Shown: one piece after another, positions 8,173 through 29,779 of the stretch | How positions within the stretch are numbered: position 1 is the stretch's first letter | Layout of the letters: every line of letters starts with the position of its first letter | Notes under the pieces: generated by a model | Databases searched by the model: none | What the model was told of the DNA's origin: nothing | What the model saw: the letters and a program-made list of their open reading frames with translations, nothing else | From: Dyella sp. S184 | GTDB lineage: Bacteria > Pseudomonadota > Gammaproteobacteria > Xanthomonadales > Rhodanobacteraceae | Direction: 5' to 3' | Length of the DNA: 64,000 nucleotides | NCBI RefSeq assembly: GCF_009766065.1 | Contig: NZ_LMUE01000005.1 | Span: forward strand, 62,001 to 126,000 | Made by a program: the position numbers and the translations under genes

Positions 8173-8177
8173 TGCCC
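8173..8177. repeat. Left copy of the 5-bp target-site duplication (TGCCC)
   Basis: TGCCC immediately precedes the left transposon end and is repeated exactly after the right end (29496-29500). A 5-bp duplication is what Tn7-family transposition produces. Confidence 0.93.
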
Positions 8178-8250
8178 TGTCGGCCGCCCTTATTGATGTC
8201 AGTAAGCACGTGAAAGATGTCAGCGACCCTAAAACGTGTCAGATGGCATC
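8178..8250. repeat. Left transposon end with terminal repeat and TnsB-type sites
   Basis: The terminal inverted repeat occupies 8178-8204. An 8-base motif GATGTCAG occurs on the plus strand at 8195 and 8216, with CGTGTCAG at 8235, so three sites are spaced 21 and 19 bases apart. Similar motifs occur in inverted orientation at the right end. Arrays of short repeats near the tips are the binding sites of TnsB in Tn7-family elements; calling them TnsB sites here is inference from position and orientation. Confidence 0.85.
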
Positions 8251-12543: not shown

Positions 12544-12596
12544 CGCGGGACAGCACGCCATCCACTTTCGATCAACTTATTCGATGAGGCTTCATC

Positions 12597-14984
12597 ATGA
12601 AACAATCCTATTTCATTCTCAGTGCGTCGATCGCTGCCGCATTGGCCGGGGCCCCCGGCATGCTGCTGGCACAACCGCAGATTACCGTCGCAGCGCCCAC
12701 AGGTATTAGCGCCACCGAAGCGCCGCGGGTGACGCAGGCCGTGACCAACGGCAAACTGTCCACCCTGACGAAAACCCATCTCGGATTTACGACCCAAGCG
12801 CCGAGCACTCCCATGAGTCGCTCGACTTCAATGAATCATCTCCAATTGGTGCTCCAGCCTAGCGCGTTGCGGACAGCGGCCATGGAAGCGTTGATTGCCA
12901 ACCAGCACAACCCCAAATCCGCTCAGTTCCACAAGTGGCTCACACCGGAGCAGTTCGGCGAACAATTCGGCGTGGTCGATAGTGATATCGCCGCCGCGAC
13001 CGCGTGGTTGACGTCGCAAGGCTTCACCGTCAACAACGTGTACCCGAACAAGACACAGATCGATTTCAGCGGCACCGCAGCACAGGTGAATCAGGCGTTC
13101 CACACGCAGGAAAATATCTACACGATCAACAACGTCAAGCATTTTTCCAATGCCAGTGATATCAGTATTCCGGCGGCACTCGCACCCATCGTCGCTGGTG
13201 TGATGGGTTTGAACAATTTCCATGCAACGCCGTTGAACAAGAAATCGACATCTCAGGTTGGCCAGTGGGATGGTTCAAAGAAAGGGTTTGTGCCTAAGGC
13301 ATCCAAGAACCCGGCAATGGGTTCGAAAGTAATCGGACAGGCCATCCCAGTCGGTGGTTTAGGCAACGCGGACCGGGCCTTGGTGCCCAACGACATGGCC
13401 ACGATGTATGGCATTAAGACGATTCGTGCCAATGGCGTGACGGGCAAAGGCATCACCATTGCGGTGGTTGGAAAATATGACATGGTTCCAGCGGATTGGA
13501 CCAATTTCGTTAGCCAATTCAACCTTGGCCAGTATGGCGGAACGTTTACACAGATCAATCCCGCACCTACCAGTGGGACGAATAACTGTGTCGATCCATC
13601 GGTGGCGAACTTCGGTGATTACTCTGGAACTGTTGAGGATGCCGAATGGGCGACCGCGATTGCCCCTGGCGCGAATATCGAGGTTGCCACCTGCTCCGAC
13701 TATACCGCCGACTTCTCGGGCTATGAGACGTCGAACTTCTTTGGGGGTACCTTCATCGCAGCCACCAACTTGGTCAACGCTTCCAGCGGCCGTCCGGACA
13801 TCATCAGCGTCGGCTACGCTGCTGGCGAGCTTTTGGTGGATAGCGCTAGTAAGACTGCGATCGATCTGATGTGGGCACAGGCGGACGCGGAAGGCATCTC
13901 TGTGTTCGTGGAGGCTGGTGATTCAGGCTTGAATCCGGATTTCGCGGATGCCCAAATCAACGGCTACGGCATCCCCGGCAACACGATGATTGATGTCAAC
14001 GCACTTGCCAGTTCGCCCCATGACACCGCTGTTGGGGGTACAGACCTCGCGGATATTCTTGATGGCACCACCAACCAGTACTTTGCTGCCACGCCGAGCG
14101 TGGTCGGCGGCTCAGCGCTTTCCTATGTACCGGAGATTGCCTGGAATGGGTCTTGCGGTAACGGTGTCGCCGCCAAGGCTTATGGTTACAGCAGTGCCGT
14201 CGCGTTCTGTCAGGATTACTACGCGGCGTATGATCCCGATGGATACTACCTGACGGCCAGTGCAGGCTCGGGTGGGCCATCATCCGTCGATGCCAAGCCG
14301 GCTTGGCAGCAGCAGGTATACAACGCGGCAAAGGATCATTTCCGCGATATTCCCGACGTGGCGCTATTTGCGGGATCTTTTGATAACTACACGTCGATAG
14401 TCGTCTGCGACTCCTACTACCCCTGCTCACCAGGATGGTCGACGCCGGTGCTTCTCGAAGAAAGTACAGGCATTTCCACATCGATGTTTGCTGGCATTCA
14501 AGCGTTGATCGATCAGGGCATCGCCGCGCGCGGACTTCCAGCGGATCAAGGTAATGCGGCGCCCACGCTTTATGCACTTGCCGCCAACGAATACGGTGGC
14601 GCTAGTGGTCCAACGCCCACCAGTCTTGCTTCCTGCAATGCAGACAACGGCGCAACCGGGACCAGCAATTGTGTATTCCACAACGTCACGCGTGGATCCA
14701 CTTCTTCCAATTGCTTCGAAATAAGCGCACCGAGTCCAGGTTTCGTCGCCAGTACAACTCCGAATTGCTACTACTACGCAGCGATTGTGAACAAAAACGG
14801 TTTTGTTGGAGCGGGCCAAGCCGGGCTAACCACCATCGACGACACACCCACCACGTATGGGGTAGGTAACAAAGCCTATGGCGCTCAGCCTGGATGGAGT
14901 TTTGCATCCGGTCTGGGTTCGGTAAACGCGACAAACTTGCTCATCGCCTGGCGCGCTTATGTCGGTGCACCGCCGGCGCTCTAA
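12597..14984 (+). CDS. Second S53-family paralogue, predicted catalytically dead
   Basis: The 795-residue product aligns with its neighbour over the whole length, including signal peptide, pro-domain (QFHKWLTPEQFGEQFG) and catalytic fold, so the pair arose by tandem duplication. Two of three catalytic residues are lost. The Glu position reads DYSGTVEDAEW (Gly344 in place of Glu), and the nucleophile loop reads EESTGISTSMF (Gly625 in place of Ser). Asp348 and oxyanion Asp442 remain. The conserved ISASYG of copy 1 is ISVGYAAG here. The frame is fully open with a good start, so this looks like a maintained pseudo-enzyme rather than a decaying gene. It might act as a chaperone, inhibitor or binding protein for the active copy. 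The two genes probably share a transcript. Confidence 0.9.
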   Translation: MKQSYFILSASIAAALAGAPGMLLAQPQITVAAPTGISATEAPRVTQAVTNGKLSTLTKTHLGFTTQAPSTPMSRSTSMNHLQLVLQPSALRTAAMEALIANQHNPKSAQFHKWLTPEQFGEQFGVVDSDIAAATAWLTSQGFTVNNVYPNKTQIDFSGTAAQVNQAFHTQENIYTINNVKHFSNASDISIPAALAPIVAGVMGLNNFHATPLNKKSTSQVGQWDGSKKGFVPKASKNPAMGSKVIGQAIPVGGLGNADRALVPNDMATMYGIKTIRANGVTGKGITIAVVGKYDMVPADWTNFVSQFNLGQYGGTFTQINPAPTSGTNNCVDPSVANFGDYSGTVEDAEWATAIAPGANIEVATCSDYTADFSGYETSNFFGGTFIAATNLVNASSGRPDIISVGYAAGELLVDSASKTAIDLMWAQADAEGISVFVEAGDSGLNPDFADAQINGYGIPGNTMIDVNALASSPHDTAVGGTDLADILDGTTNQYFAATPSVVGGSALSYVPEIAWNGSCGNGVAAKAYGYSSAVAFCQDYYAAYDPDGYYLTASAGSGGPSSVDAKPAWQQQVYNAAKDHFRDIPDVALFAGSFDNYTSIVVCDSYYPCSPGWSTPVLLEESTGISTSMFAGIQALIDQGIAARGLPADQGNAAPTLYALAANEYGGASGPTPTSLASCNADNGATGTSNCVFHNVTRGSTSSNCFEISAPSPGFVASTTPNCYYYAAIVNKNGFVGAGQAGLTTIDDTPTTYGVGNKAYGAQPGWSFASGLGSVNATNLLIAWRAYVGAPPAL

Positions 14985-16242: not shown

Positions 16243-16464
16243 CATTCTCGAACTCAAAGACGGGGAAAGTTTCTTGCTAGAGGCGATTCTTGACGCCGAA
16301 AGTGATGGTGACATTCCACGGTTACATCGCCATAGCCCATCGCCGCTCGTTTGTCAGGCTTGGCTCGCGCACGTCGTGTGCGACTCGCATACCGCGTGAT
16401 TGACAAGAACACCGTTCGAATCTGGAGGATAGGTCAGATCGGTCAAGGTAGGCACGCAGACTAG
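16243..16464. repeat. 222-bp direct repeat, copy 1, with remnant of a RelE/ParE-like toxin
   Basis: This block matches 17923-18144 without gaps at an offset of exactly 1680 bases, with about 20 mismatches by eye. In both copies the right half can be read as the C-terminus of a RelE/ParE-like toxin (RVRLAYRVIDKNTVRIWR); copy 1 has a TAG stop just upstream (CCATAGCCC). No start codon or antitoxin partner remains. Upstream bases 16069-16242 show nothing recognisable. Confidence 0.7.
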
Positions 16465-17922: not shown

Positions 17923-18144
17923 CATTCTCGAACTCAAAGATGGGGACAGTTTCTTGCTACAAACGATTCTTGACGCCGAAAGTGATGGTGGCATTCCACG
18001 GTTACATCGCCACAGCCCATCGCCGCTCGTTTGTCAGGCTTGGCTCGCGCACGTCGTGTGCGACTCGCATACCGCGTGATTGATAAGAACACCGTTCGGA
18101 TTTGGAGGGTGGGTCAGGTCGCTGAAGGCAAGCATTGAGACTAG
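17923..18144. repeat. 222-bp direct repeat, copy 2
   Basis: This is the second copy of the block at 16243-16464. Here the toxin-like frame is open for longer (from about 17986 to TGA at 18136-18138, ending RVGQVAEGKH), consistent with a degraded RelE/ParE-like gene. It abuts the IS66 fragment. Bases 18145-18229 show nothing further. Confidence 0.7.
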
Positions 18145-18593: not shown

Positions 18594-19694
18594 TCACCAA
18601 TAGTGCGGCGGAGGGCCATCGACTGATGAATAACGTCTGGGCTCCAGCAAGTGACGGGACGGCTGATCTTGTAGCGCTTCCCTGACCTGTTCTCTCGAAC
18701 CGATGACCCTCGACATGGATTCTAACCACCCTGGACAATGTCCGGGGGGAGCGCATCCGCCGTTCCGCAGCCTGGTTCGCGGCGATAGCCTTGAGAACGT
18801 ATGCGCAACAACCCACAAAGCAGCACGACGAGTGGGCATGTCGCTTAGACATCGCACTCCACGTCGCCATGCCAATTGCTTCGTTGTCCGGGGCAGCGCG
18901 TTGCGGTTAAAGGACAGATAACTGCGTTCAAAAAAGTCAGGGCAGAGATCACGCACGATCCAACGAAACTCATTCGGATTGCCGGCTCGACGAAGTACCA
19001 ACACCAGAAGCCGACAGATTGCACCAAGGTCCTTGGCCGCATGGGTCGGCGCGTTCCCCGGTGAGCGGTAGGCCTCGTACGTAAGGCATGCGCGTTCAAA
19101 GGTGGTCAGCGTATCCCAAATCTCTTTCGATTCGGGATGCCGAGATAGGCCCTCTTTGAGGGCATTAATGGCCTGCAGATCCGCGGGAATTCGATTCGTA
19201 ACGTCGAGTTCCTTCATGCTCGGATCTCGAATCCAACTAGGCGGCAGTATGCGACTTCCGTCGTTGTTCGTATGGAGCCAATCGAACAACGGCGTTCTGT
19301 GAAAGGAGCAATGCGTCGCCAAGACATGAGCCCACTGTAGGCGAAAATAGGGCGTTTTGCGTTGCTGCAGATCGTCCTCAAAGCAGAGAGGACAATAGTG
19401 TTTCCTGCACGTTGGGTGCAGCATCCAATCCCTTTCCGGCACCGGGCTGGCGAATGGAGCGAGATCTGTCCATTCCAGCCCTGTAGCGTCAAAAAATGGG
19501 CGGCGCGCCTCCCAGCAATCGAACGCATCAAAATCCCAACCGCGTTCAAAACGTGCTCCAACCGCGCGCACCGCGCCCTCCCTAGTCAATCCGTAACGTT
19601 GGACGTTTCGGTCCAGCCACGATGACAGTGATTCGTCGTCGTGGGGGCGGTCACAGTAAATGAAAGGGCCGCCCCCTTTGCGACTACGCAGCAT
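18594..19694 (-). CDS. tniQ: TniQ-family target-selection protein
   Basis: The protein is about 366 residues from ATG 19694; an in-frame ATG at 19763 would overlap tnsC and is the alternative. It opens with FIYCDRPHDDESLSSWLDRN, the TniQ signature (P…ESLxSWLxR). A zinc-ribbon follows with YCPLCFEDD and later THCSFHRTPL (CPxC … CxxH). TniQ/TnsD proteins recognise or accept the insertion target and recruit the TnsC ATPase. Only one TniQ gene is present and there is no separate TnsE. It follows tnsC after 20 bases in the operon. The C-terminal half is poorly conserved, as is usual. Confidence 0.85.
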   Translation of the reverse strand: MLRSRKGGGPFIYCDRPHDDESLSSWLDRNVQRYGLTREGAVRAVGARFERGWDFDAFDCWEARRPFFDATGLEWTDLAPFASPVPERDWMLHPTCRKHYCPLCFEDDLQQRKTPYFRLQWAHVLATHCSFHRTPLFDWLHTNNDGSRILPPSWIRDPSMKELDVTNRIPADLQAINALKEGLSRHPESKEIWDTLTTFERACLTYEAYRSPGNAPTHAAKDLGAICRLLVLVLRRAGNPNEFRWIVRDLCPDFFERSYLSFNRNALPRTTKQLAWRRGVRCLSDMPTRRAALWVVAHTFSRLSPRTRLRNGGCAPPGHCPGWLESMSRVIGSREQVREALQDQPSRHLLEPRRYSSVDGPPPHYW

Positions 19695-19714
19695 GTGTTT
19701 ATCCACGGCCGGGC

Positions 19715-20680
19715 TCAGTGAATCGTTGGCCCATCCAGCATTTCGTGCGAAGGCACATCCCATGGAAGCCGAAGCATTTCCGGAGTGATCGTCTCCTTTC
19801 CGGAGATGATTGCCTCGATGGCGGCGTTCTTTACTATGTCGATGATGTAACCAAGCTTCCCGTCAGAGAGCTCAAGCAGCTTCGTGATCATCTCCCTAGT
19901 GCGCAGATTTACGTTCCCCTGCAGCAGCAAGTTCGGCTCCAGACTGGCAAGGAGGTCTACCAAGTCGTCGTCGTCCCTCCATGGTGGTAGCTTGATTTCA
20001 CTGAATCGCGCGCGAAGGTGTTGATCGCTATCGAATGCTTTTCCGGCCTGCTCGACCCCCAGCGCGAGCACTGGCATTTTGAGTGAATTCATCAAATATT
20101 TGATTGCGTCTAGTACGCGTTGTTGGTCGCGCTCGGACGTCTTAAGCACGTCTTGCGTCTCGTCCAGAATAAGCAGCCTGCAATTGATGTTTCGCAGAGT
20201 CATGGTTACGACAAGCTCGCGATCTGCCACCCGTGCGTTGTTGTTTACGGGCGCATTGATCTGCTCCAGGATTCGGCCATAGACGGCCCGGGAAGTGGCA
20301 AGCCCTGATAACTCAATCATGACGGCACAGGGACGAACGCTACCGATAAATGAGGACGGCGCTAGCTGTGAATAGGCCTTCAAAATTGCGTTCCCAAGGG
20401 TAGTTTTCCCGCTGTTGGTGGGACCCGTAACAATGAGTCCGGGGGCGCGGGAACGCGGCTGTTGTTTGATCATCCAGAGAACACGATTCACCGCCTTTTT
20501 AAGTTGAGGATGCAAGATAACGCGTTCTGTTTGGACGGCTATAGTCCTTTCCTCCTTAGATGCGTTACGGAGATCCTTCTTCTCTGTCTCAGTTTTTGAC
20601 ACCTTCGCATCAAGCTCCGCCCGTACTTCCGAATCATTTGGCGATGGCTGTGAAGTCGAGAAATCGATTGAGTCAGTCAT
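19715..20680 (-). CDS. tnsC: TnsC/TniB-like AAA+ transposition ATPase
   Basis: This 321-residue AAA+ protein has Walker A GPTNSGKT (about 86-93) and Walker B LLILDETQDV (about 169-178), followed by a sensor region (MPVLALGVEQAGKAF). In Tn7-family elements TnsC polymerises on target DNA, links TniQ with the TnsAB transposase, and controls target immunity. The N-terminal 50 residues are charged and probably flexible. It begins 2 bases after the tnsB stop, so translation is coupled. Length fits TniB-like ATPases rather than the longer Tn7 TnsC. Confidence 0.9.
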   Translation of the reverse strand: MTDSIDFSTSQPSPNDSEVRAELDAKVSKTETEKKDLRNASKEERTIAVQTERVILHPQLKKAVNRVLWMIKQQPRSRAPGLIVTGPTNSGKTTLGNAILKAYSQLAPSSFIGSVRPCAVMIELSGLATSRAVYGRILEQINAPVNNNARVADRELVVTMTLRNINCRLLILDETQDVLKTSERDQQRVLDAIKYLMNSLKMPVLALGVEQAGKAFDSDQHLRARFSEIKLPPWRDDDDLVDLLASLEPNLLLQGNVNLRTREMITKLLELSDGKLGYIIDIVKNAAIEAIISGKETITPEMLRLPWDVPSHEMLDGPTIH

Positions 20681-20682
20681 GA

Positions 20683-22524
20683 TCAGAACTCCATAATTTC
20701 GAATGGGATAGGAACTCGATTTGGGCTGAACACCGTCACAGGGGCGGTCGGTTCTGTCGCTACCTTCGGCATGGGGAGCGCTAGCACGTTCTTATCTCTT
20801 TCAACTTTCTTGTGTGACAAGCGATGCGCTTGGCGCGTGGCCTTCTGACTGGTGGCAACAAGTGCCTTGTTGGCGTCATGGCCGGCGATCCGGTCGTCGA
20901 TTCGTTGCTGAATGCTTCCCGTGGTGCGTTGTGCGGAACTCAGCTTTTGCCATTCGGCCACTGACATCTGCGGCACGTCCGTGCGAACACAGTTCACGAT
21001 AATGACCTGGCCGAAAGGGTCGACGAAATACACGCGGCGAATGTCACGGGAGTCGAATCGAATCGCGTGCCTGACGCCCTTGGCAACGTAGTCACGCAGC
21101 TCGTCCGACCAGTACCGCATACCATGCATGTTGATACCTACGCGACTGATGGGACGCTCGCAGTAAGGAAGGAAATCAACATAGAGACGCATGCACTGGT
21201 GATCTGAGAGCTCGCACGCCGGGGATGTTTCGGAAGAGCTCTTACTGCGCCATGCTTCAATCGGCGGCATACCGATACCGCGATGCACTACCTGGTGATA
21301 GTGCGCTGTGATTTCCGTGACGAGCCACTGCCGAAATTCGGACAGGGTGAGACAGGCCCTCCGTTCGACGTCTTGACCAGCTTTTGCTCGTACGTCGCGC
21401 TGCGTAGCGCCGGGGAGCATGCGCAATCGCCCCATCATTGTCCCAATGAGACGTTCAATGACTCCGCCCCAGTGCGGGCTACCCACGGGCCGGTATCGAA
21501 GTTCGATGCCATGCTCCTGGCAGCCCCGCTTTATCGCGATGCCGTGAAAGTCGTGGCCGTTGTCAGTAAGGATTACTTCGATCTCCCCAGAACAAGGCCA
21601 TTCCACGCCTAAAAGGTCAAAGCCGAGGTAACGCGCCAACTGTTCTTTGGGTAGCACGATAGAAAGAATGCACATCGCGAGAGAGGAGCTGGTGGGCGCC
21701 TCGAACGAAATGTGGAAACCGACGACGCACCTCGTTGCGACACAAATCGCAAAGGTCACCCAGGGCCTTCCAACGACCACGCGTCTTGCGTCATCAGACA
21801 CGAGAAGAATGTCGGCCAACGTGTGATCTATTTCAATCAACTCCATAGGCCGCATCACGGTCAGTGTTCCAGGCACCGGCTTGAACTTTTCTCGCGTTTG
21901 CTTACCACCGTGGCGCCGCTGCATTACGTACTCTGGCGCAATGGCCTTGAGGCGATTACGCACCGTTTTTTCACAGGGACAGGCCAGTCCTTGCTTCGCG
22001 CATTCCAATTCCAAATGGTCCATGGCGACCCCCAGACTCGGTCGTTCTCGGGTCAAATGGGACTTTTCTATGGCTTCGTGCAGTAATGCCTCCCGTCGCA
22101 CGCCGAGGTAGCGACTTCCCTTTCGACGTCCTCGTTTTTGGGCTAAGAGAGCGGACACCTTTGGCTCTATTTGGTATTCCCGACAAATTCGCCAGACCGT
22201 TCGTTCATCTACACCAAGAGTCTGCGCGGCCATCGCCACCGCCTTGGTCTTGTCGCAAGCACCCTCGATTGCCTTGCATGCATTGGCTTTTTCAGCGGCC
22301 CTTTCCCACTCGTCGGCGTCGATAGCAGCCAATGGCAAGTCGCGATCGGTTTCATTCAACGGCTCGAGAGGCGTCAGGTTAGACATCGGCACAGTTCGTA
22401 TTACCTTCTCACCCGTAAGACGGATCAGTACGTCTGGGCTAGCGTCGGAGTTCTCTACGATTTCTCCGCTATGTCCATTCCAAACGACGGGTCGGCCTTC
22501 AGCGAACAGAGCGTTAGTCGACAT
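20683..22524 (-). CDS. tnsB: TnsB/TniA-like DDE transposase
   Basis: The 613-residue transposase of the Mu/retroviral integrase (rve) superfamily starts at ATG 22524 (MSTNALFAEG), overlapping tnsA by 11 bases. An N-terminal HTH region (VDERTVWRICREYQI) precedes the catalytic core. The DDE triad is visible as Asp233 (IEIDHTLAD), Asp321 (LTDNGHDF) and Glu357 (GGVIERLIGTM). A C-terminal beta-barrel-like part and a basic tail follow. TnsB binds the end repeats and joins the 3' ends to target DNA. All key residues are present, so the enzyme looks functional. Confidence 0.93.
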   Translation of the reverse strand: MSTNALFAEGRPVVWNGHSGEIVENSDASPDVLIRLTGEKVIRTVPMSNLTPLEPLNETDRDLPLAAIDADEWERAAEKANACKAIEGACDKTKAVAMAAQTLGVDERTVWRICREYQIEPKVSALLAQKRGRRKGSRYLGVRREALLHEAIEKSHLTRERPSLGVAMDHLELECAKQGLACPCEKTVRNRLKAIAPEYVMQRRHGGKQTREKFKPVPGTLTVMRPMELIEIDHTLADILLVSDDARRVVVGRPWVTFAICVATRCVVGFHISFEAPTSSSLAMCILSIVLPKEQLARYLGFDLLGVEWPCSGEIEVILTDNGHDFHGIAIKRGCQEHGIELRYRPVGSPHWGGVIERLIGTMMGRLRMLPGATQRDVRAKAGQDVERRACLTLSEFRQWLVTEITAHYHQVVHRGIGMPPIEAWRSKSSSETSPACELSDHQCMRLYVDFLPYCERPISRVGINMHGMRYWSDELRDYVAKGVRHAIRFDSRDIRRVYFVDPFGQVIIVNCVRTDVPQMSVAEWQKLSSAQRTTGSIQQRIDDRIAGHDANKALVATSQKATRQAHRLSHKKVERDKNVLALPMPKVATEPTAPVTVFSPNRVPIPFEIMEF

Positions 22525-23050
22525 GGCTGCTCTCCCCGTTTCCAACGAAGTCTTTTTCAGTAATCACAACAAGCGGGAGGGCCGTCGACAATGTGACAGC
22601 GGCTTGTCGCTCCATTAACTTGTAGCGATAGCGATCAGCCTGGTGCTTCGTTTTCACCTCGATGAGAAAGCACTCTAGTTTTCTCGTTGACTCGCACACG
22701 TACGCGACAAGAATGTCGGGGGTATAGCTGCGCCGATCTCCACCTGCGGTGTAGTGGATCGATACGGGCTGCGTGGCCACCGCGACGCACTCGGGGCAGG
22801 CGGTTAGGGCTTTGAGCACATGCCGCTCTAGCCGGCTTTCCACCGGGAGCAGTGCTTGACCTGGCCACGTTGGCGCATAGCCGGTCGAGTGGCAGCCATG
22901 CGACAACGGTATCGAGCGTGACCACCAATCCAGGTGCTTTATCGTGATGTCGGGATAGCGATCTCTGGCCAATTCCGAGGTGTGGAGCAGGGCGCGTGCG
23001 CGCTCGCGTAGAGCATTTTGGAGATCGAACTGTGGTGCGTTCATGATCAC
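22514..23050 (-). CDS. tnsA: TnsA-like endonuclease
   Basis: The 178-residue protein has the TnsA N-terminal nuclease fold. Candidate catalytic residues are Glu71/Glu75 (VESRLERHV), Asp112 (SYTPDILVAY) and Glu131/Lys133 (FLIEVKTK), the E-D-ExK arrangement of type-II-restriction-like nucleases. TnsA nicks the 5' ends so that the element is cut out fully and moves without cointegrates. It lacks the TnsA C-terminal TnsC-interacting domain of Tn7 (273 aa), so it is a short form. It is the first tns gene, followed by tnsB with an 11-base overlap. Confidence 0.87.
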   Translation of the reverse strand: MIMNAPQFDLQNALRERARALLHTSELARDRYPDITIKHLDWWSRSIPLSHGCHSTGYAPTWPGQALLPVESRLERHVLKALTACPECVAVATQPVSIHYTAGGDRRSYTPDILVAYVCESTRKLECFLIEVKTKHQADRYRYKLMERQAAVTLSTALPLVVITEKDFVGNGESSHVD

Positions 23051-23227: not shown

Positions 23228-23560
23228 TTATGGGTGTGTTGGTACCTCCCTTGTGGCAAAGATGGGCTTGCAACGAGCCTTTGACTGACTAAGCAGGCTT
23301 AGCAGTCGCCAGCAGACTTCACTTGTTAAAGCGTAGGGCGTCGAAACGCCTGGCAGGGGTGTAAAGGGTTCATTCCGAAGGCGAGGCCGCCATGCCGGAA
23401 CCGCTGCAGCAATAAGCGTATGGGCGTCCTGCAAGGGGATAATCGGTCCCCGTTGCTCAAGTTGACGTCGCACCCAATCTGCAGCGTCGCGAGATGCTTG
23501 GCCCGCGCAGGAGAGGTGACTCTCCAGCGACACGAAGCCATCGCACCGCGAGCTAGGCAT
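23228..23560 (-). CDS. Small protein of unknown function coupled to the HTH gene upstream of tnsA
   Basis: The 110-residue frame starts at ATG 23560 (MPSSRCDGFVSLESHLS), 8 bases inside the end of the upstream HTH gene. A GGGAG box at the right distance supports translation. The protein is rich in Arg, Pro and Leu, with a helical part (ASRDAADWVRRQLEQRG). I do not recognise a family. The tight overlap and the position between the HTH gene and tnsA suggest a role in transposon regulation or accessory function; this is inference. Bases 23051-23227 before tnsA show no gene and may hold a tns promoter. Confidence 0.5.
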   Translation of the reverse strand: MPSSRCDGFVSLESHLSCAGQASRDAADWVRRQLEQRGPIIPLQDAHTLIAAAVPAWRPRLRNEPFTPLPGVSTPYALTSEVCWRLLSLLSQSKARCKPIFATREVPTHP

Positions 23561-23834
23561 CTGTCGTCTCCCTTGCGGGCAACGCACCCGAGAGACTTCG
23601 CGCGGTCGTCGGGAGAATTGATTCCAGCCAGCTTCTAACTTCGCTTGTCGCGGCAAACCAACCGCGCCGCCCGGGAACCTGAAACATCGTGATGGGCAGC
23701 CGCCCCTCAAGCCGGGCGCGAGATAAAGCACTAGTTGACTCAAATCCCATCGCTCTCGCCGTAGCGGTGGAGCTAAGGAGGGCCGCGTTCGGCAGGTACA
23801 GCTCAGTGCGGGCTGAAACGCGATCTTTCGCCAC
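23553..23834 (-). CDS. Small excisionase/AlpA-like DNA-binding protein
   Basis: The 93-residue basic protein contains an HTH_17-like winged helix: LPNAALLSSTATARAMGF, then EGRLPITMFQVPGRRGWFAA, then TSEVRSWLE. This pattern (helix-turn-helix, short wing, closing helix) is typical of excisionase and AlpA-type regulators. It is transcribed toward tnsA and overlaps the following small gene by 8 bases. A 36-bp palindrome lies about 80 bases upstream of its start, which could be its own operator. It may regulate the tns genes or help shape the transposon end complex; both are inference. Confidence 0.6.
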   Translation of the reverse strand: MAKDRVSARTELYLPNAALLSSTATARAMGFESTSALSRARLEGRLPITMFQVPGRRGWFAATSEVRSWLESILPTTARSLSGALPARETTDA

Positions 23835-24207: not shown

Positions 24208-25638
24208 TCACGACGGTTCGGTAGCTTGACTAAAAACGTCTGGCCAAACCGTCTGCCAGGCCTTAGCCGTCCCCAGCTGGGAGCAGAACGCGCAATCGGC
24301 CAACCGCGGTTTCTTAGCTCTTAGATGACGATGTGGCGCGTGCCACGGGGATAGAAACAGGTAATTCGTATCATCCGCTACGTGGTTCTTGGTGTCGAAG
24401 CGGACCAGCTCCAAGGCGAGAAGCGCTCCCGCCAAGTTGGAGATAAAGGCGAAAGGAGCCGAGGCTTGTTTTCCGGCCGGGGTCCGAAGCTGCCCTTCGC
24501 CACACATGGATTTGTAGAGCGTGTCCAGCGCTGTATTGATCAGAGCAGCTTTGTCCAATGTAGGAAAGTTGGTGCAAAGTTTCGTTGCCAGCGCTTCATC
24601 AATCAGCGGCTTGCGGACGTCATCCACTGTGATGCCAAGATTTTCTGCGGTGTGCTCGTCCTGCTGCTGCTCATTTACTACATGCGGGTAGATGCACGCC
24701 AAACATGCGTCCTTCGTAGGTTGCCGATGACTATGGACGATGATTTCGCTGATGTCCGTTGTCGAGGCATCGATGACCTCAAGCGGTAAGTCATTCTGCA
24801 CCGAGCGGCGCGCACGGCGACTATCTACGGTCGTGATAACTCGAGTAACCTTATTTCCGGGCCGCGTGGACAGATAGCTTGCCAGATCGCCTTCGTAGGC
24901 TGTTACAGCCAGCCCCGGACGATTAAACCGCTGAGCTAAGAGCGACGATTTGCTCGCGCCCACATCGCGCGGCACGAAGTAGAGGCAGCGGTTCAAATTT
25001 CCGCGGTGAACTTTTTTAGGGTCAACGATCGTCAATTCGCCGACAATCCGGAGTTCCTCCGCAGCCCATAGAAATCCGTTGGCTACCCCACCAGCACCGA
25101 CTAGCACCGTGTCACGAAGGATGACTTCGCTATTCAGTAGCCCAGGTTGAATGCCCAAGTCACTGAAACGCACAGTCAACGCCGGGGAATCAACAGTTGC
25201 TGTCGATGGAGGATTGCGATCTGCCAGCAACCCGAGCGCGTTACTAAGGGTAAATCCGCATAGATAGCACGCTGCGATTTTGCGAAGGAGCCCGTGGATA
25301 TCTTCAATCCCGCCTGGGACTACATCGCCCCTCTCACCGTGATCATTCTGCGCAGAAAGGGACAAGGTGTCCCCATCAAGACTGGTCCATATCTGCAGGG
25401 GTGCGGTGGTTACGTATTTCGTACCAAGCGCAATCTCGACGTCACATTCCATGTTCAGATCGACTATGGAGACGGTGCGGGAGAGCAGTGACTCAACGTC
25501 TCGCGCGAGATTCATGCAGGCGGGCGAGTCGGAACGTGAAACGCGAACTCGAAGGGAAAGCTTCTCGGTTGCCTCTCCCTCTGAGAGACCAGTTGCTGCC
25601 ATGAGCGTGCGAACGTTTTCATTGATGCCGTTATTCAT
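24208..25638 (-). CDS. E1-like (ThiF/MoeB-fold) ubiquitin-like-protein activating enzyme
   Basis: The 476-residue protein starts at ATG 25638, overlapping the JAB gene by 4 bases. Residues 1-165 form an unrecognised N-terminal domain. From about 175 comes a ThiF/E1 adenylation fold: nucleotide loop VLVGAGGVANG (178-188), acidic strand TIVDPKKVHRGNLNR (203-217) and the later helices. Two CxxC pairs, CLAC (312-315) and CAFC (449-452), probably bind zinc as in MoeB/E1 enzymes. Several Cys residues, including Cys355, could be the thioester site. The predicted reaction is ATP-dependent adenylation of the Ubl C-terminal glycine and transfer to the E2-like Cys. It is the last gene of Ubl-E2-JAB-E1. 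Ligase partners are not seen. Confidence 0.87.
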   Translation of the reverse strand: MNNGINENVRTLMAATGLSEGEATEKLSLRVRVSRSDSPACMNLARDVESLLSRTVSIVDLNMECDVEIALGTKYVTTAPLQIWTSLDGDTLSLSAQNDHGERGDVVPGGIEDIHGLLRKIAACYLCGFTLSNALGLLADRNPPSTATVDSPALTVRFSDLGIQPGLLNSEVILRDTVLVGAGGVANGFLWAAEELRIVGELTIVDPKKVHRGNLNRCLYFVPRDVGASKSSLLAQRFNRPGLAVTAYEGDLASYLSTRPGNKVTRVITTVDSRRARRSVQNDLPLEVIDASTTDISEIIVHSHRQPTKDACLACIYPHVVNEQQQDEHTAENLGITVDDVRKPLIDEALATKLCTNFPTLDKAALINTALDTLYKSMCGEGQLRTPAGKQASAPFAFISNLAGALLALELVRFDTKNHVADDTNYLFLSPWHAPHRHLRAKKPRLADCAFCSQLGTAKAWQTVWPDVFSQATEPS

Positions 25639-26099
25639 GGCTCTTCCAGCTTGAGGGCAGTTCGGAGTTCGATGTGCATCCACCTGTCGTCGGACGACAA
25701 CTCATATGCGGCAACCTGGTCGAAGAAGTTATTCGGCGTCGTGTCTTCTGCGAAGTTCGGCACCACCAGTGAATAAGCGCCCGCGTGGCGCACGATTGCC
25801 CACTCGTCATCTGCGGCAGAGTGGAATGCTTCGCGCGGGTGCGAGTGCACCTGAGCAACGATCTTTGCGCGAGTTTTCCGAAGATGAGCCATAACCGCTC
25901 GCATGGCTTCGCTCGACATGTGGAAGCGATCAAAGGCCGCCACCTGATCGGGGCGGTAGGCTTCAGTGATCTGCGTCACCTCGGCGGTGGCGTGGCCAAG
26001 CCAAAGAACTACGGTTTCGACATCGCGCTCGCCGCCTTCGCGCAGATGGCGCAATGTCGTTTCAATAATCTGTGGCGCGCACTTCAACTGGGTTGTCAT
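25635..26099 (-). CDS. JAB/JAMM (Mov34/MPN-type) metallopeptidase
   Basis: The 154-residue protein starts at ATG 26099, with a 4-base overlap to the E2 gene. The JAMM signature is visible: Glu28 in VETVVLWLG and the zinc motif HSHPREAFHSAADD (85-98; His85, His87, Ser94 and Asp97/98). Such peptidases are deubiquitinase relatives that trim ubiquitin-like precursors or remove them from targets. The cognate Ubl here ends GGGGA, with an extra Ala after the glycines, which this enzyme could remove. It lies between E2 and E1 genes. The spacing inside the JAMM motif is one residue shorter than in AMSH/RadC types. Confidence 0.88.
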   Translation of the reverse strand: MTTQLKCAPQIIETTLRHLREGGERDVETVVLWLGHATAEVTQITEAYRPDQVAAFDRFHMSSEAMRAVMAHLRKTRAKIVAQVHSHPREAFHSAADDEWAIVRHAGAYSLVVPNFAEDTTPNNFFDQVAAYELSSDDRWMHIELRTALKLEEP

Positions 26100-26521
26100 A
26101 GTCCTACCTGCGTACGCCAAGCGACACATAGCTGGGTGAGCAGACCGGCCACGTTCATGCCGTCTTGCGCGCGATATGTATCCCAGAGATCGGTAAGATG
26201 GCTTGAATGAGTGTGGTACTCACGGAAACCACGCATGCAGACGAATGGGCGCCGTGTTGTAGGATGCAAATCCTGGTGGAAAACCCCACCGGGCAAGCCT
26301 ACCGGCGGACTTCCATCTGGCATGAGAAGTAGTGCCGAGGGAGGGAGTTCGGGCCAGTTATCGCAAGTGAGCTGCACGCGAAGCGGGCGTGTTCCGTTGA
26401 ACGTAACATCGACGACCGGATATTCGATCGAATTAACTTCCCAGCTATGGCACCGGGTGAAAACGAGCGAGAGGTTGGCAACCTCTCGCTCGAAGTTAGA
26501 CTTGGCGAGTGCCTCATGCAC
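26096..26521 (-). CDS. E2-like (UBC-fold) conjugating protein
   Basis: From GTG 26521 the protein has 141 residues; the frame continues upstream in the Ubl gene but only as a shadow. The UBC-like core has strands VVDVTFNGTRPLRVQL, a Pro-rich loop NWPELPPSALLLMPDG, and HPTTRRPFVCMRG, in which Cys95 sits after His86-Pro87 as the E2 active Cys does in prokaryotic E2 families (HP…C). It would take the Ubl from the E1 as a thioester and pass it to a target. The start overlaps the Ubl stop by 8 bases and the end overlaps the JAB start by ATGA. No HPN Asn is seen, so amide formation may differ from eukaryotic E2s. Confidence 0.8.
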   Translation of the reverse strand: MHEALAKSNFEREVANLSLVFTRCHSWEVNSIEYPVVDVTFNGTRPLRVQLTCDNWPELPPSALLLMPDGSPPVGLPGGVFHQDLHPTTRRPFVCMRGFREYHTHSSHLTDLWDTYRAQDGMNVAGLLTQLCVAWRTQVGL

Positions 26522-26825
26522 CGCCACCGCCCTCCCGCTTATGCCACTCGATCTCGACGATGCCGTAGAGATCATTCGCAGCGAAGGTCTCCGCTTCATT
26601 GATGGGCCGATTCCCGACCGTGGCCACCCAGTCCGCAGTGTTTGTAAGCCCAAGCTGCAGCGCGGCAGCGGCAAGCAATTCACGTACTACCTCGGTGCTA
26701 TAGCCGCGCCGATAGTCATCAAGGTTGGGAAACACGCCGCTCGTGGTGATCACAGCGAGCGCCATCGGGTGGCTCTTACTTTCGGAGTCGGCTCCAGCCG
26801 ATCCGGATGCGTCAGGGGTGCTCAT
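26514..26825 (-). CDS. Ubiquitin-like protein with C-terminal GGGGA tail
   Basis: The 103-residue protein starts at ATG 26825 with AGAGG upstream; the longer frame from 26891 lacks a ribosome site. Residues 1-20 are a Ser/Asp-rich tail, and residues 21-97 fit a beta-grasp fold (MALAVITTSG strand, helix STEVVRELLAAAALQLGL, strands WVATVGNRPI and LYGIVEIEWHK). It ends KREGGGGA. Di-glycine near the end is the site of E1 adenylation in ubiquitin-like systems; the extra Ala would have to be cut off, probably by the neighbouring JAB peptidase. It is the first gene of the operon, transcribed away from the Xre regulator. I infer the fold from pattern, not from a profile search. Confidence 0.82.
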   Translation of the reverse strand: MSTPDASGSAGADSESKSHPMALAVITTSGVFPNLDDYRRGYSTEVVRELLAAAALQLGLTNTADWVATVGNRPINEAETFAANDLYGIVEIEWHKREGGGGA

Positions 26826-26986
26826 GGTGCTTACCTCTTTGTCGGGGACCCGCAAGGGGGAAGGCGGGCGGAATGTTTGTCTCACAAACATCTGGCATTG
26901 TCACTAACAATCACATCTCCATGTCATCAACATTGACATTGCCCCCCGTATGGGCGACGCTGTGGCTCGTCCTATGAGCTCCCCTC
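26826..26986. promoter_or_regulatory. Divergent promoter with several dyads between Ubl and Xre operons
   Basis: This 161-base region separates the Ubl operon (leftward) from xre (rightward). It holds ATGTTTGT-CTC-ACAAACAT (26873-26891), ATTGT-CACTA-ACAAT (26897-26911) and TGTCA…TGACA (26922-26938). Such dyads fit Xre-family operators. The purine-rich ribosome site for the Ubl start is at its left edge. Autoregulation of both operons by the Xre protein is the simplest reading. Confidence 0.7.
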
Positions 26987-27310
26987 ATGACAGACAAAGA
27001 AACCTTCTATAAAGCGCTCGGTAGCAAAATCCGCGAGCAGCGCGAGGTCGTAGGCCTCACCCAGGCGCAACTGGCAAATGCTGTGGGTCTGTCCCGAACC
27101 TCGGTAACTAACATCGAGCTAGGCAGGCAACGATTGATGCTCGATCAATTCGAAAGCATATGTGCCGCCGTTGGAAAGACAGCAGGTGATGTTCTTGGCT
27201 CTGCGCAAACCCCTGTCGTCGAGACGAGGAATGCTCATGACTTGGGTGCATTGCCGTCTGTGCAGAATTTCGTCCGCGAGCTCAAGCAAGCGAAGGGTAA
27301 GGAAAGATGA
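26987..27310 (+). CDS. Xre-family transcriptional regulator
   Basis: The 107-residue protein has an HTH_3 domain at residues 8-65 (KIREQREVVGLTQAQLANAV, then GLSRTSVTNIELGRQRLMLD). The remainder is a short tail ending QAKGKER. It is the first gene of the rightward operon, overlapping the ImmA/IrrE peptidase gene by ATGA. The pairing of an Xre repressor with an ImmA/IrrE peptidase is known from ICEBs1 (ImmR/ImmA) and from CBASS-associated CapH/CapP, where cleavage of the repressor derepresses the island. Here the likely targets are the divergent Ubl operon and its own promoter. Confidence 0.88.
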   Translation: MTDKETFYKALGSKIREQREVVGLTQAQLANAVGLSRTSVTNIELGRQRLMLDQFESICAAVGKTAGDVLGSAQTPVVETRNAHDLGALPSVQNFVRELKQAKGKER

Positions 27311-27846
27311 CTCCGACCCGACCCCGCTATGCCCGAATCAGGCAACTCGTCGACGAGCTACTGACCGCAAGCGGCACGAGATCGGCACCAGTGCCAGTAG
27401 AGAAGATCGCAGCCCACGTAGGTGCGGAGATTGTCTTTCGAGACTTCGATGAAAACGTGTCCGGGGTACTCGTGCGAAGCGACACGGCTCCAGTCATTGG
27501 AGTCGCAACAAACCAATCCACCGAACGTCAGCGATTCACAATCGCGCATGAACTAGGTCATCTGGCTCTCCATGAGGGTCGTGAAGTTCACGTCGATAAG
27601 CTTTTTCGTATCAACTTGAGATCACCTAGTTCTTCACGTGCGGAAGACGTCCAGGAAATCGAGGCGAATGCGTTTGCTGCGTCCTTGTTAATGCCACAGC
27701 TTTTCCTTCAGAAGGATATCGCCAGCATCGAGCTCGACTTCGAAGATCCCAGTCGGATTCTTCCTCTTGCTCAGAAATATGGTGTGAGCGTGCAAGCTAT
27801 GACGTTTCGACTCCTGAATCTGTTTGGCTCATCCGAGCGAGCATGA
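27307..27846 (+). CDS. ImmA/IrrE-family metallopeptidase
   Basis: The 179-residue protein contains the zinc motif FTIAHELGHLALHEG (His81, Glu82, His85) and the downstream Glu119 in EIEANAFAASLLMP, the third zinc ligand in this family. Length is typical of single-domain ImmA-type peptidases. It would cleave its partner Xre repressor upon a stress or DNA-damage signal, as in ImmA/ImmR and CapP/CapH; this is inference from family and gene order. It is coupled to xre upstream and to the zinc-finger gene downstream by 4-base overlaps. Confidence 0.9.
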   Translation: MTPTRPRYARIRQLVDELLTASGTRSAPVPVEKIAAHVGAEIVFRDFDENVSGVLVRSDTAPVIGVATNQSTERQRFTIAHELGHLALHEGREVHVDKLFRINLRSPSSSRAEDVQEIEANAFAASLLMPQLFLQKDIASIELDFEDPSRILPLAQKYGVSVQAMTFRLLNLFGSSERA

Positions 27847-28208
27847 TTGCGTTTCTAGGCCAGATTCTGCGAGCCTTGGCGGGGTTGTTTCGCACACCGT
27901 CACAGCCCGATGACAGCGCCACACGAGAGCACGTCCGCACAAGTTATTCGTCGCGAACTCGATGTAACGTTCGACGTTATCGCGGCACGAACGAGCCGCC
28001 GCCAATGCAATGGAAGGCTTGTCACCACACAACAATCGCCCGATTCAAGGCGGAAATGACATGCCCTCACGGACATGGGCTGACGTTGAAGAGTCATAGC
28101 GTCAGCGCATCAGGGATCGTCAGTCCCAGTGTGGTTTGCCCTTCGCCAGGATGCCGGTTTCATGAGTTTGTCGTGCTAGACGACTGGGACTTTGGCGAAG
28201 TCGCGTAA
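27843..28208 (+). CDS. Small predicted zinc-binding protein coupled to the ImmA gene
   Basis: The 121-residue protein starts in the ATGA overlap with the peptidase gene. Residues 1-20 look hydrophobic (MIAFLGQILRALAGLF) and could form a membrane anchor or amphipathic helix. The C-terminal half has Cys/His pairs that could bind zinc: KACHH, MTCPHGHG and VVCPSPGCRFHEF. I do not recognise the family. Its firm coupling to xre-immA suggests a role in sensing or in the conjugation module. A few residues resemble zinc-ribbon adaptor proteins found near prokaryotic ubiquitin-like genes, but I cannot confirm this. Confidence 0.65.
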   Translation: MIAFLGQILRALAGLFRTPSQPDDSATREHVRTSYSSRTRCNVRRYRGTNEPPPMQWKACHHTTIARFKAEMTCPHGHGLTLKSHSVSASGIVSPSVVCPSPGCRFHEFVVLDDWDFGEVA

Positions 28209-28240
28209 GAACTAAGCGCGTTGGCATCTATTCGGAAAGG

Positions 28241-28435
28241 TCAGAATTTTTCGACGTACACACCGACATATGGTGTTTTGCGCGTACTCGAGTCGGGCGA
28301 CACGGACTCTTTCAACTTTGTAAGCTGTTCCGAAGACAGACGCTTGACCTCAACACGCGAAGGTTCATGCCGTGCTGCTGCACTCACAACTTTCTCGTAT
28401 GAACCTGCAGCATCTTGAGCATGGGATTTGTTCAT
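28241..28435 (-). CDS. Small protein downstream of the Ntn hydrolase
   Basis: The 64-residue protein starts at ATG 28435, 11 bases after the Ntn hydrolase stop, with GAGG upstream. It is charged and mostly helical in look (YEKVVSAAARHEPSRVEVKR then LSSEQLTKLKESVSP), with a C-terminal VGVYVEKF strand. No family is recognised. The spacing implies co-translation with the hydrolase, so an activator, inhibitor or adaptor is possible. It ends 32 bases from the convergent zinc-binding gene. Confidence 0.55.
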   Translation of the reverse strand: MNKSHAQDAAGSYEKVVSAAARHEPSRVEVKRLSSEQLTKLKESVSPDSSTRKTPYVGVYVEKF

Positions 28436-28446
28436 ATCGACGAACC

Positions 28447-29247
28447 TCAAGTGTTCAGTTCCGACGGGTAGTAGTGCTTTCTCGCGACCCACTTAAATCC
28501 GTTGTGCTTGGTGATAGCTGCAAGATCAACGGGTTTTGCGACAATGGAGTATCCAGGCTGGAAGCGTACGTAGCCACACGTCACATCAATAAAATAGTGC
28601 ACAAGGTCGACTGCATCCTGAATCGGCATTGCGCCGTTAATCAAAGGTTCCATGCTCGTCAACAGCGCTCTTGCATCGTCGAGGGTAACCCCCGCCGCGA
28701 TAAGCTTTTGTTCGATCTGACTCGAGTATCCAAATAGTACGCGCTGAATCGGCTCGCGCGCGCCTTCCCATACGCAATCCCAGATGGCCTCGGGCTGCAC
28801 AACTTGCGCCAATTCGGCACCATGGCCGGTCAACGTAAGCCGCCAAATCTCCGCGCTATCCTTATCCGATGAATAGCCACCGATAAGGAAGCCCATCACC
28901 GTCGAGTTGTCGTTGCCACCGTGCAGTGGCTCATAGAGCTCGTCGTAGAAATATCGCTTGAACGCATTGGCGACGTTTTCCACATTGAAATTTCGCGGAT
29001 CGACATGCCACGCGGGGTCTGGTCCGCTCAGCCTCGCTCGCAACTCGTTCGCAAGGCTGGATACTGACCTGTTCTTAAGGCTTCCAAGTCCAAAAGTGAG
29101 CGCGCCCACGGGAAGGTTTCGGACGTGAATCAGCTTTTCAGTGTTGAAGTAGGAATTGTGATATTGGTCAGCCGTAAACAGCGCGGAAGCGCTATCCGCC
29201 CCTAGGACGAGACCGTCCCCGACTTTCAACGCGACAACTATCGTCAT
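28447..29247 (-). CDS. Proteasome beta/HslV-like Ntn hydrolase
   Basis: The 266-residue protein starts MTIVVALKVGDGLVLGADSA, the typical N-terminus of T1-family peptidases. Removal of Met would expose Thr1. Counting from it, the conserved Asp17 falls in GADSAS and a Lys lies at 37 in NTEKLIHV, near the usual Lys33. A glycine turn FGLGS and the strand VMGFLIGGYSS fit the alpha-beta-beta-alpha sandwich. The protein is longer than HslV (about 175) and is not a close match to Anbu as I know it. No AAA+ unfoldase lies next to it. It is followed by a 64-aa gene. It sits at the right end of the transposon beside the Ubl module, so degradation or processing of Ubl-tagged proteins is an appealing but unproven role. 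Confidence 0.8.
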   Translation of the reverse strand: MTIVVALKVGDGLVLGADSASALFTADQYHNSYFNTEKLIHVRNLPVGALTFGLGSLKNRSVSSLANELRARLSGPDPAWHVDPRNFNVENVANAFKRYFYDELYEPLHGGNDNSTVMGFLIGGYSSDKDSAEIWRLTLTGHGAELAQVVQPEAIWDCVWEGAREPIQRVLFGYSSQIEQKLIAAGVTLDDARALLTSMEPLINGAMPIQDAVDLVHYFIDVTCGYVRFQPGYSIVAKPVDLAAITKHNGFKWVARKHYYPSELNT

Positions 29248-29370: not shown

Positions 29371-29495
29371 TGTCAGTTGGCGTCTGAAAGGACTTTATTG
29401 TTGTCAGTTGGCATCAGTGCGACCCGTTGCTCGGCAAACAATATTGTTTTCAGTCATAACTTTATACGTACTGACATCAATAAGGACCGCCGACA
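29371..29495. repeat. Right transposon end with terminal repeat and TnsB-type sites
   Basis: The terminal inverted repeat is 29469-29495. On the minus strand, GATGTCAG (29478-29471), GATGCCAA (29415-29408) and GACGCCAA (29384-29377) mirror the motifs of the left end. The sites lie 63 and 31 bases apart, wider than on the left, an asymmetry typical of Tn7 ends. Bases 29248-29370 lie between the hydrolase start and these sites and hold its promoter. Confidence 0.85.
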
Positions 29496-29779
29496 TGCCC
29501 ATCGGATCGCTTCAACCGCCAGAGTCTGGTCAGCTCTCATCCCGCCACGAAAGGCAAAGCATCACCCGTACCAAATGGCACAAGTTGATGAACGCTTTTG
29601 GTGTGGACGCGTGATTCCGCTACAGCAATCACAGGTTGTCGATCCAAGCGCAGCCTGGAGCGGCCCTTGCGGGCCCTGCATCAATGCAATCGGCAACTGC
29701 AACACCTCCGGATCAGCACATCGGCTGACCCGGGATGTCCGTACTGGGGCTGATCAAGGGCAATCCTGGACGTGGAACG
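29496..29779. other. Chromosomal flank right of the transposon, starting with TSD copy TGCCC
   Basis: 29496-29500 is the second TGCCC. Joining bases up to 8177 directly to 29501 rebuilds the empty site. Short frames cross the joint (one ends …WHKLMNAFGVDA at 29613) but have no good start. No tRNA or conserved gene end is seen, so the site looks intergenic. Confidence 0.75.

Follow-up and report, generated by a model that had tools for sequence, protein, structure and literature searches.

Does this locus hold a bacterial machinery that tags proteins and then degrades them, or do a tagging module and an unrelated hydrolase merely share a vehicle? The question is raised by a stretch of 64,000 nucleotides from Dyella sp. 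S184 (contig NZ_LMUE01000005.1, positions 62,001 to 126,000), which as a whole is called the window here and to which all coordinates given without a locus number refer. On it, a gene for a ubiquitin-like protein (Ubl) stands together with genes for an E2-like enzyme, a JAB/JAMM peptidase and an E1-like enzyme, in the vicinity of an N-terminal nucleophile (Ntn) hydrolase of the proteasome type, and an initial annotation had taken this assembly for an undescribed system. In our reading, to which we assign a probability of roughly 0.75, the locus is a mobile conjugation operon of Bil type under a damage-responsive switch of its own, accompanied by an unrelated passenger. It draws on gene content and coupling, on homology and the positions of active-site residues, and on transposon ends and co-occurrence.

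The conjugation genes form a compact operon on the minus strand (24208-26825). All four, including the Ubl with its GGGGA tail, are indeed present as open reading frames (ORFs), as had been predicted, with their starts corrected here from alignments with relatives (values after database names are expectation values, E):

26514-26825, minus strand: single-domain Ubl, 103 aa, C-terminus REGGGGA, aligned with 24 relatives
26096-26521, minus strand: BilB-like E2, 141 aa, GTG start, Pfam Metal_CEHH 8.5e-6, CEHH residues spaced +6, +8, +13
25635-26099, minus strand: BilC-like JAB/JAMM peptidase, 154 aa, Pfam Prok-JAB 8.5e-8, PADLOC BilC 2.5e-18, E..HxHx6Sx2D conserved
24208-25638, minus strand: BilD-like E1, 476 aa, Pfam ThiF 4e-13 and E1-N 2.2e-7

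Judged by the sequence profiles of its E1, E2 and JAB, and in the case of the E1 and E2 also by active-site positions, the operon is of Bil type. Namely, the best PDB match of the E1 profile is BilD (8tyz_A, 4.8e-37), the JAB profile has BilC (8tyx_B, 3.5e-28) as its only PDB match at E up to 0.001, and the E2 profile has BilB (8tyz_C, 2.9e-8) as its only one at E up to 1. According to the available text of PMC11354881, the BilB motif consists of Cys138/Glu144/His146/His151 and the catalytic residue of BilD is Cys417. The spacing in the window E2 (Cys, Glu +6, His +8, His +13) is identical to that of BilB, while C394 of the E1, as numbered in a 491-aa frame, is invariant in all 6 aligned sequences (A2) and, by a hand count on the printed alignment, aligns with BilD position 417. 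What is more, the BilC-related JAB retains its metal ligands. The same available text letters the Bil genes as A for the Ubl, B for the E2, C for the JAB and D for the E1, which is precisely the order found here, and the earlier impression of a gene order unlike that of Bil is thereby removed, as is the notion of an undescribed system, given that three of the enzymes are Bil-type. In particular, among 30 loci examined around E1 relatives (loci and genomes carry the prefixes L and G below), 24 hold all four genes, always in this order, two are truncated (L008, L017), and four with a weak or partial E1 (L039-L042) were excluded from the operon count, leaving 26 operons. In the class samples the E1 was found in its own genome only (1 of 369, E up to 1e-20), and among viral contigs none of 43 candidate stretches was confirmed as containing an E1 relative.

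How might such an operon be controlled? Divergent from it lie three genes (26987-28208) that the first reading of the sequence had overlooked, and a possible regulatory site lies in the interval between:

26987-27310, plus strand: CapH-like helix-turn-helix (HTH) repressor, PADLOC capH 8.9e-11, Pfam HTH_31 1.5e-10
27307-27846, plus strand: CapP-like M78 metallopeptidase (HELGH), PADLOC capP 3.2e-35, Pfam Peptidase_M78 3.2e-21
27843-28208, plus strand: Zn9 (P0009), 121-aa zinc-finger-like protein, ATGA-coupled to capP, near 14 of 26 related operons
26873-26891, strand not applicable: candidate CapH operator, palindrome ATGTTTGTCTCACAAACAT with 8-bp arms, between the divergent operons

Because ATGA overlaps occur on both strands, at the E2/JAB and JAB/E1 junctions on the one and at the capH/capP and capP/Zn9 junctions on the other, the cluster consists of two divergent, tightly coupled operons. 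The adjoining HTH and M78 genes both match PADLOC models and, as in known CapH+CapP pairs, a repressor and a protease are encoded divergently from an operon of the immune type; the window differs in having a third gene ATGA-coupled downstream. In the available text of a 2026 EMBO J paper (PMC13373217), CapP is activated by single-stranded DNA and cleaves CapH, and CapW or CapH+CapP is reported beside 219 of 544 Bub operons. A 19-mer matching the candidate operator at 16 of 19 positions (by count) is present in the equivalent interval of G038. In three related loci the regulator position is occupied by a RES toxin and an Xre/MbcA antitoxin in place of CapHP (L019 7216-8308, L024 7144-8296 and L005 6180-7269), with the RES match of L024 falling slightly below the Pfam cut-off.

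The Bub systems themselves share with the window a Ubl and an E1, HTH/M78-type control nearby and, in the congener G018, the vicinity of a related Tn7-like gene set. They differ in their enzymes, however: in G018, the E1 is of the DUF6791+ThiF kind, the Ubl is a Multi_ubiq protein and a DUF6527 gene follows the E1, whereas the window operon has no match to Multi_ubiq, DUF6791 or DUF6527, and no match to DUF6527 was found anywhere in the window's own genome. By these features, as seen in G018, the operon falls outside Bub.

The third gene of the divergent operon deserves closer attention. Zn9, whose conserved core reads roughly W..CHPST..FKA..TC..GH.LTL..H....G.V.PSVVC..PGC.FHEFV.L..W, lies near 14 of the 26 related operons (14 also being the figure for all 30 loci), and its relatives occur in three of 72,556 plasmid records, with the Ubl operon present in all three. 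Among 197 genomes of the host family, Zn9 is found in G000, G038 and G163, exactly the genomes with strong E1 matches, the fourth E1 match (G019) being weak at 45 bits. Leaving the index genome out, the coincidence of two and two among 196 genomes has a chance of approximately 5e-5 by hand calculation, G038 and G163 being congeneric. G038 carries the block E1-JAB-E2-Ubl / capH-capP-Zn9 as in the window, without the Ntn hydrolase. In the class samples, Zn9 was seen in its own genome only (1 of 340).

What kind of protein is Zn9? Pfam, NCBIfam, PADLOC and PHROGs offer no family for it, two chance matches of single members near E 0.09 being all that Pfam gave, and its AlphaFold model (confidence score pLDDT 76.6) gave no identity by fold, with the best PDB match at E 3.2. 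There is, however, a lead, suggestive only, towards a distant kinship with DUF6527. Although the Pfam DUF6527 model is matched by none of 15 Zn9 members, a comparison of Zn9 with a profile of 8 DUF6527 proteins, drawn from twelve fetched loci, scored 23.5 (P 0.0007, HH-suite probability 27%, or 9% with full alignments), while none of 200 column shuffles did as well (best 20.7) and the reversed profile scored 8.9. In the four loci viewed by eye (L051, L052, L053, L055) of these twelve, the gene immediately behind a ThiF-type E1 encodes DUF6527, as it does in G018 by Pfam. No account of Zn9 turned up in the literature, but no search was aimed at it, and we make no claim of its absence from print. 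Most likely, Zn9 is an accessory of the conjugation pathway. This small conserved gene offers a candidate for a factor still missing from the picture of bacterial ubiquitin-like conjugation, with a recognition or accessory role. A more specific proposal would make Zn9 a partner devoted to Bil-type conjugation, acting like an E3 or as an adaptor that recognises targets, and a distant counterpart of the DUF6527 protein encoded behind the E1 of Bub operons, derived from a zinc-finger domain that phages have too. This strikes us as rather unlikely; were it true, a defence would be using a piece of its phage enemy for recognition.

Both divergent operons, together with the Ntn hydrolase gene, lie within a single mobile element, whose main parts are:

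8178-29495, strand not applicable: complete Tn7-like transposon, 21.3 kb, with terminal inverted repeats and the duplication TGCCC at 8173-8177 and 29496-29500
18594-19763, minus strand: TniQ, Pfam TniQ 8.1e-12
19715-20680, minus strand: TniB/TnsC ATPase, Pfam TniB 1.5e-36
20683-22545, minus strand: TniA/TnsB transposase, Pfam Mu-transpos_C 1.9e-8
22514-23050, minus strand: TnsA endonuclease, Pfam Tn7_TnsA-like_N 6.1e-8

We regard this element as complete because inverted repeats, a target duplication and the genes for TnsA, TnsB, TnsC and TniQ are all present. Namely, a search in which the two edges of the low-GC region (GC content in 2-kb steps of 0.53-0.57 between 8 and 30 kb versus 0.61-0.67 outside) were compared for inverted repeats returned one 27-bp pair, at 8178-8204 and 29469-29495, identical at 25 of 27 positions (by count) and with TGT...ACA ends, and TGCCC abuts both ends as a 5-bp target duplication. 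The earlier statement that the Ubl module and the hydrolase share one transposon therefore stands, both being inside the repeats and duplications.

The passenger and its small neighbour are the last genes to be introduced:

28447-29247, minus strand: T1-type Ntn hydrolase of phage family phrog_5990 (4e-10), proteasome fold, relatives in viral contigs
28241-28435, minus strand: 64-aa ORF immediately 3' of the Ntn gene, with a small ORF likewise placed in L010

The hydrolase gene is the last before the right end of the transposon. Its product starts with Met-Thr, and all 11 aligned sequences (11 of 11) keep T2, D18 and K38, at positions that we take to be those of the catalytic residues of the proteasome. 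Its AlphaFold model (mean pLDDT 79.6) has 20S proteasome subunits as the best Foldseek matches (E 4.4e-9), and PDB matches with E no higher than 0.001 number 174, of which the 50 listed comprise proteasome subunits and one Anbu. Together with the Met-Thr start, this predicted fold agrees with the initial annotation, in which a nearby T1-type hydrolase would expose Thr1. Neither Pfam, NCBIfam nor PADLOC gave the hydrolase a significant family match, and a search for sequence relatives in the PDB was likewise without a significant result, the best matches of its profile (A7) being at E 0.36 or worse, among them an Anbu protein at 1.6. An initial viral scan with P0001 alone gave no match; relatives of the hydrolase are nevertheless found in 10 IMG/VR contigs, several of them, by eye, near tail, baseplate or lysis genes. 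As far as the available text of Fuchs et al. 2021 (PMC8665760) goes, the hydrolase shares with phrog_5990 and the proteasome-like homologues described there the proteasome fold, a Thr after the Met and a phage or mobile-element context. In the class samples, the hydrolase occurs in two of 369 genomes, one of them a partial match, and its closest relative, 68% identical, lies on an island that bears an integrase and no Ubl gene.

Would the Ubl, then, mark targets for degradation or cleavage by this neighbour, as had been proposed? The shared transposon, the distance of about 1.6 kb from the Ubl start to the Ntn gene and the invariant Thr, Asp and Lys within a predicted proteasome fold all speak for such a scheme. 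If it were correct, however, the two should travel together, and in the samples covered they do not. Relatives of the hydrolase were inspected at 14 loci (in phages, on a plasmid and on islands, with flanks on one side of 0.4 to about 10 kb), and no match to E1, E2, JAB or Ubl was found there at E up to 1e-2. Conversely, neither the Ntn hydrolase, nor the 64-aa ORF, nor the genes of the window transposon were found at any of the 30 E1 loci at E up to 1e-3, some of the contigs being short, and the hydrolase is absent from the operon loci of G038 and G163. Among the 197 genomes, the hydrolase occurs in G000, G045 and G179 and a strong E1 in G000, G038 and G163, the overlap being the index genome alone. 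Because of this lack of co-occurrence, the proposed link is unsupported; it had itself been staked on a neighbourhood comparison, and within these samples the outcome is the one named in advance as telling against it. Given also that the family occurs in phages, we consider tagging for this hydrolase highly improbable, and the hydrolase looks like a separate phage-family passenger, a chance neighbour of the operon. The 64-aa partner exists as an open frame, but it recurred at none of the 30 E1 loci. A small ORF also follows the 68% identical hydrolase gene in L010, with only marginal similarity between the two (none by BLASTP, 8.8 bits by phmmer); a profile made from the pair matches one of its own members, a circular result that was given no weight. 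The 64-aa ORF belongs, if with anything, with the Ntn cassette. In six of the 10 viral contigs, the Ntn gene is followed, or overlapped at its end, by an ORF of 64-103 aa (L064 6786-7004, L068 6856-7059, L069 6774-7034, L070 6832-7026, L071 6767-7078 and L072 3348-3578), and none of these matches a profile of the window and L010 small ORFs. Setting a real mobile tagging module apart from an apparent chance neighbour averts a false story of a bacterial ubiquitin-proteasome system.

How would the Bil-type operon and its switch work? We infer the following biochemical steps, and the anti-phage role as well. The CapH-like repressor would hold both divergent promoters down while the cell is at rest. 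Upon phage infection or DNA damage, single-stranded DNA would activate the CapP-like protease to cleave CapH, and Ubl, E2, JAB and E1 would then be produced. The JAB would trim the Ubl behind its glycine run, and the E1 would adenylate it and hand it via Cys394 to the Cys of the E2. By analogy with Bil, a phage structural protein would be the most likely target to which the E2 joins the Ubl, a conjugation that the JAB could also undo. Zn9, co-encoded with CapP, would most likely assist the conjugation pathway, while the Ntn hydrolase would simply ride along as separate cargo.

That said, several observations weigh against the reading of a Bil-type operon with its own switch and recurrent partner. 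Taken alone, the Ubl matches nothing significantly in Pfam, PADLOC or the PDB (the best PDB match of its profile being at 0.39), and it was assigned by its place in the operon, by the glycine run at its C-terminus and by an alignment with proteins that are annotated as multiubiquitin. BilA contains two Ubl domains in the available text of PMC11354881, whereas the 103 aa of the window Ubl, by alignment, leave space for one; the PADLOC BilB match is weak (0.024), no match to a BilA model was seen, and the sequences are distant from the solved Bil proteins. The candidate operator is weak when taken alone and not significant, since palindrome arms of at least 7 bp arose in 138 of 2000 shuffles. 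As for Zn9, two of its 14 occurrences match by construction, L004 and L005 (=L033) being inside its profile, and it was not found at 12 of the 26 operons, of which L016, L017 and L034 are on contigs with less than 1.5 kb upstream, but four others have capP matches (L029, L031, L036, L038). Zn9-like domains also occur in three viral contigs (L086 3829-4320, L087 5842-6171 and L088 5677-6159), whose fetched flanks show no gene of the operon, and because the domain occurs in phages too, its association with the Ubl operon is recurrent, not exclusive. Several contigs and flanks are short, and the absences are limited accordingly. Two relatives of the Ubl, on the other hand, measure about 236 aa and are annotated as multiubiquitin, and because the number of domains thus varies among relatives, the term Bil-type fits better than strict membership of Bil. 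The operon is of a known kind, here mobile, under CapHP-type control and joined by a recurrent zinc-finger-like partner; its single Ubl domain, the divergent capH-capP-Zn9 operon and the Tn7-like location set it apart from Bil.

One may also ask whether the pathway is directed at phages at all, or serves to modify host proteins under stress. CapP-type control reacts to DNA damage, the toxin-antitoxin pair found at the regulator position of some relatives is in keeping with such a role, and Bub operons are without demonstrated phage protection in the available text of PMC13373217. The enzymes, however, are Bil-type and not Bub-type, and the same text lists Bil among known anti-phage pathways; moreover, defence systems are many among Tn7-like cargo, judging from the available part of Benler et al. 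(PMC8649781). On balance, we find a stress response of this kind unlikely. Somewhat less unlikely, if still doubtful, is that Zn9 is a third component of the CapH-CapP switch and not of the conjugation pathway. It lies directly 3' of capP in the window, G038, L004 and L023, with the ATGA overlap in the window. Yet L019 and L024 have Zn9 beside the RES/Xre pair and not beside CapHP, four capP-positive operons lack a Zn9 match, and in L035 it comes right after the E1 on the same strand, even though a capH match (4e-6) and, by eye, an M78-like gene lie upstream. A role of Zn9 in conjugation remains our preferred account.

Is the window the only place where such operons and Tn7-type genes meet? 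In the congener G018 (L085 6503-16704), a diverged Tn7-type gene set adjoins the Bub operon and its HTH/M78 genes, its transposition proteins being 48% (TnsA, over 73 aa), 35% (TniA), 38% (TniB) and 27% (TniQ) identical to those of the window, and in G163 a Bil-type operon lies near a different TniA/TniB pair, the M78-like gene there falling below the Pfam cut-off. We infer that in both genomes the operons are cargo of Tn7-type elements. In three genomes belonging to the same family, Tn7-type transposition genes are thus neighbours of a ubiquitin-like operon, of Bil type in the window and G163 and of Bub type in G018; this is a hint that ubiquitin-like systems travel on elements of this kind. 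The word "ubiquitin" is absent from the main text of the Tn7-like cargo survey of Benler et al. as far as that text was available (PMC8649781). Related transposases occur in 21 of 147 genomes of the host family (E up to 1e-40).

Finally, the transposon carries some further features. A tandem pair of genes at 10162-14984, alike by eye and the first of them with a Pro-kumamolisin activation domain, look like sedolisin-type proteases. A direct repeat of 222 nt, 91% identical, is found at 16243-16464 and 17923-18144, and small ORFs adjoining tnsA in the window (23553-23834) and in L085 (11713-12048) are alike by eye.

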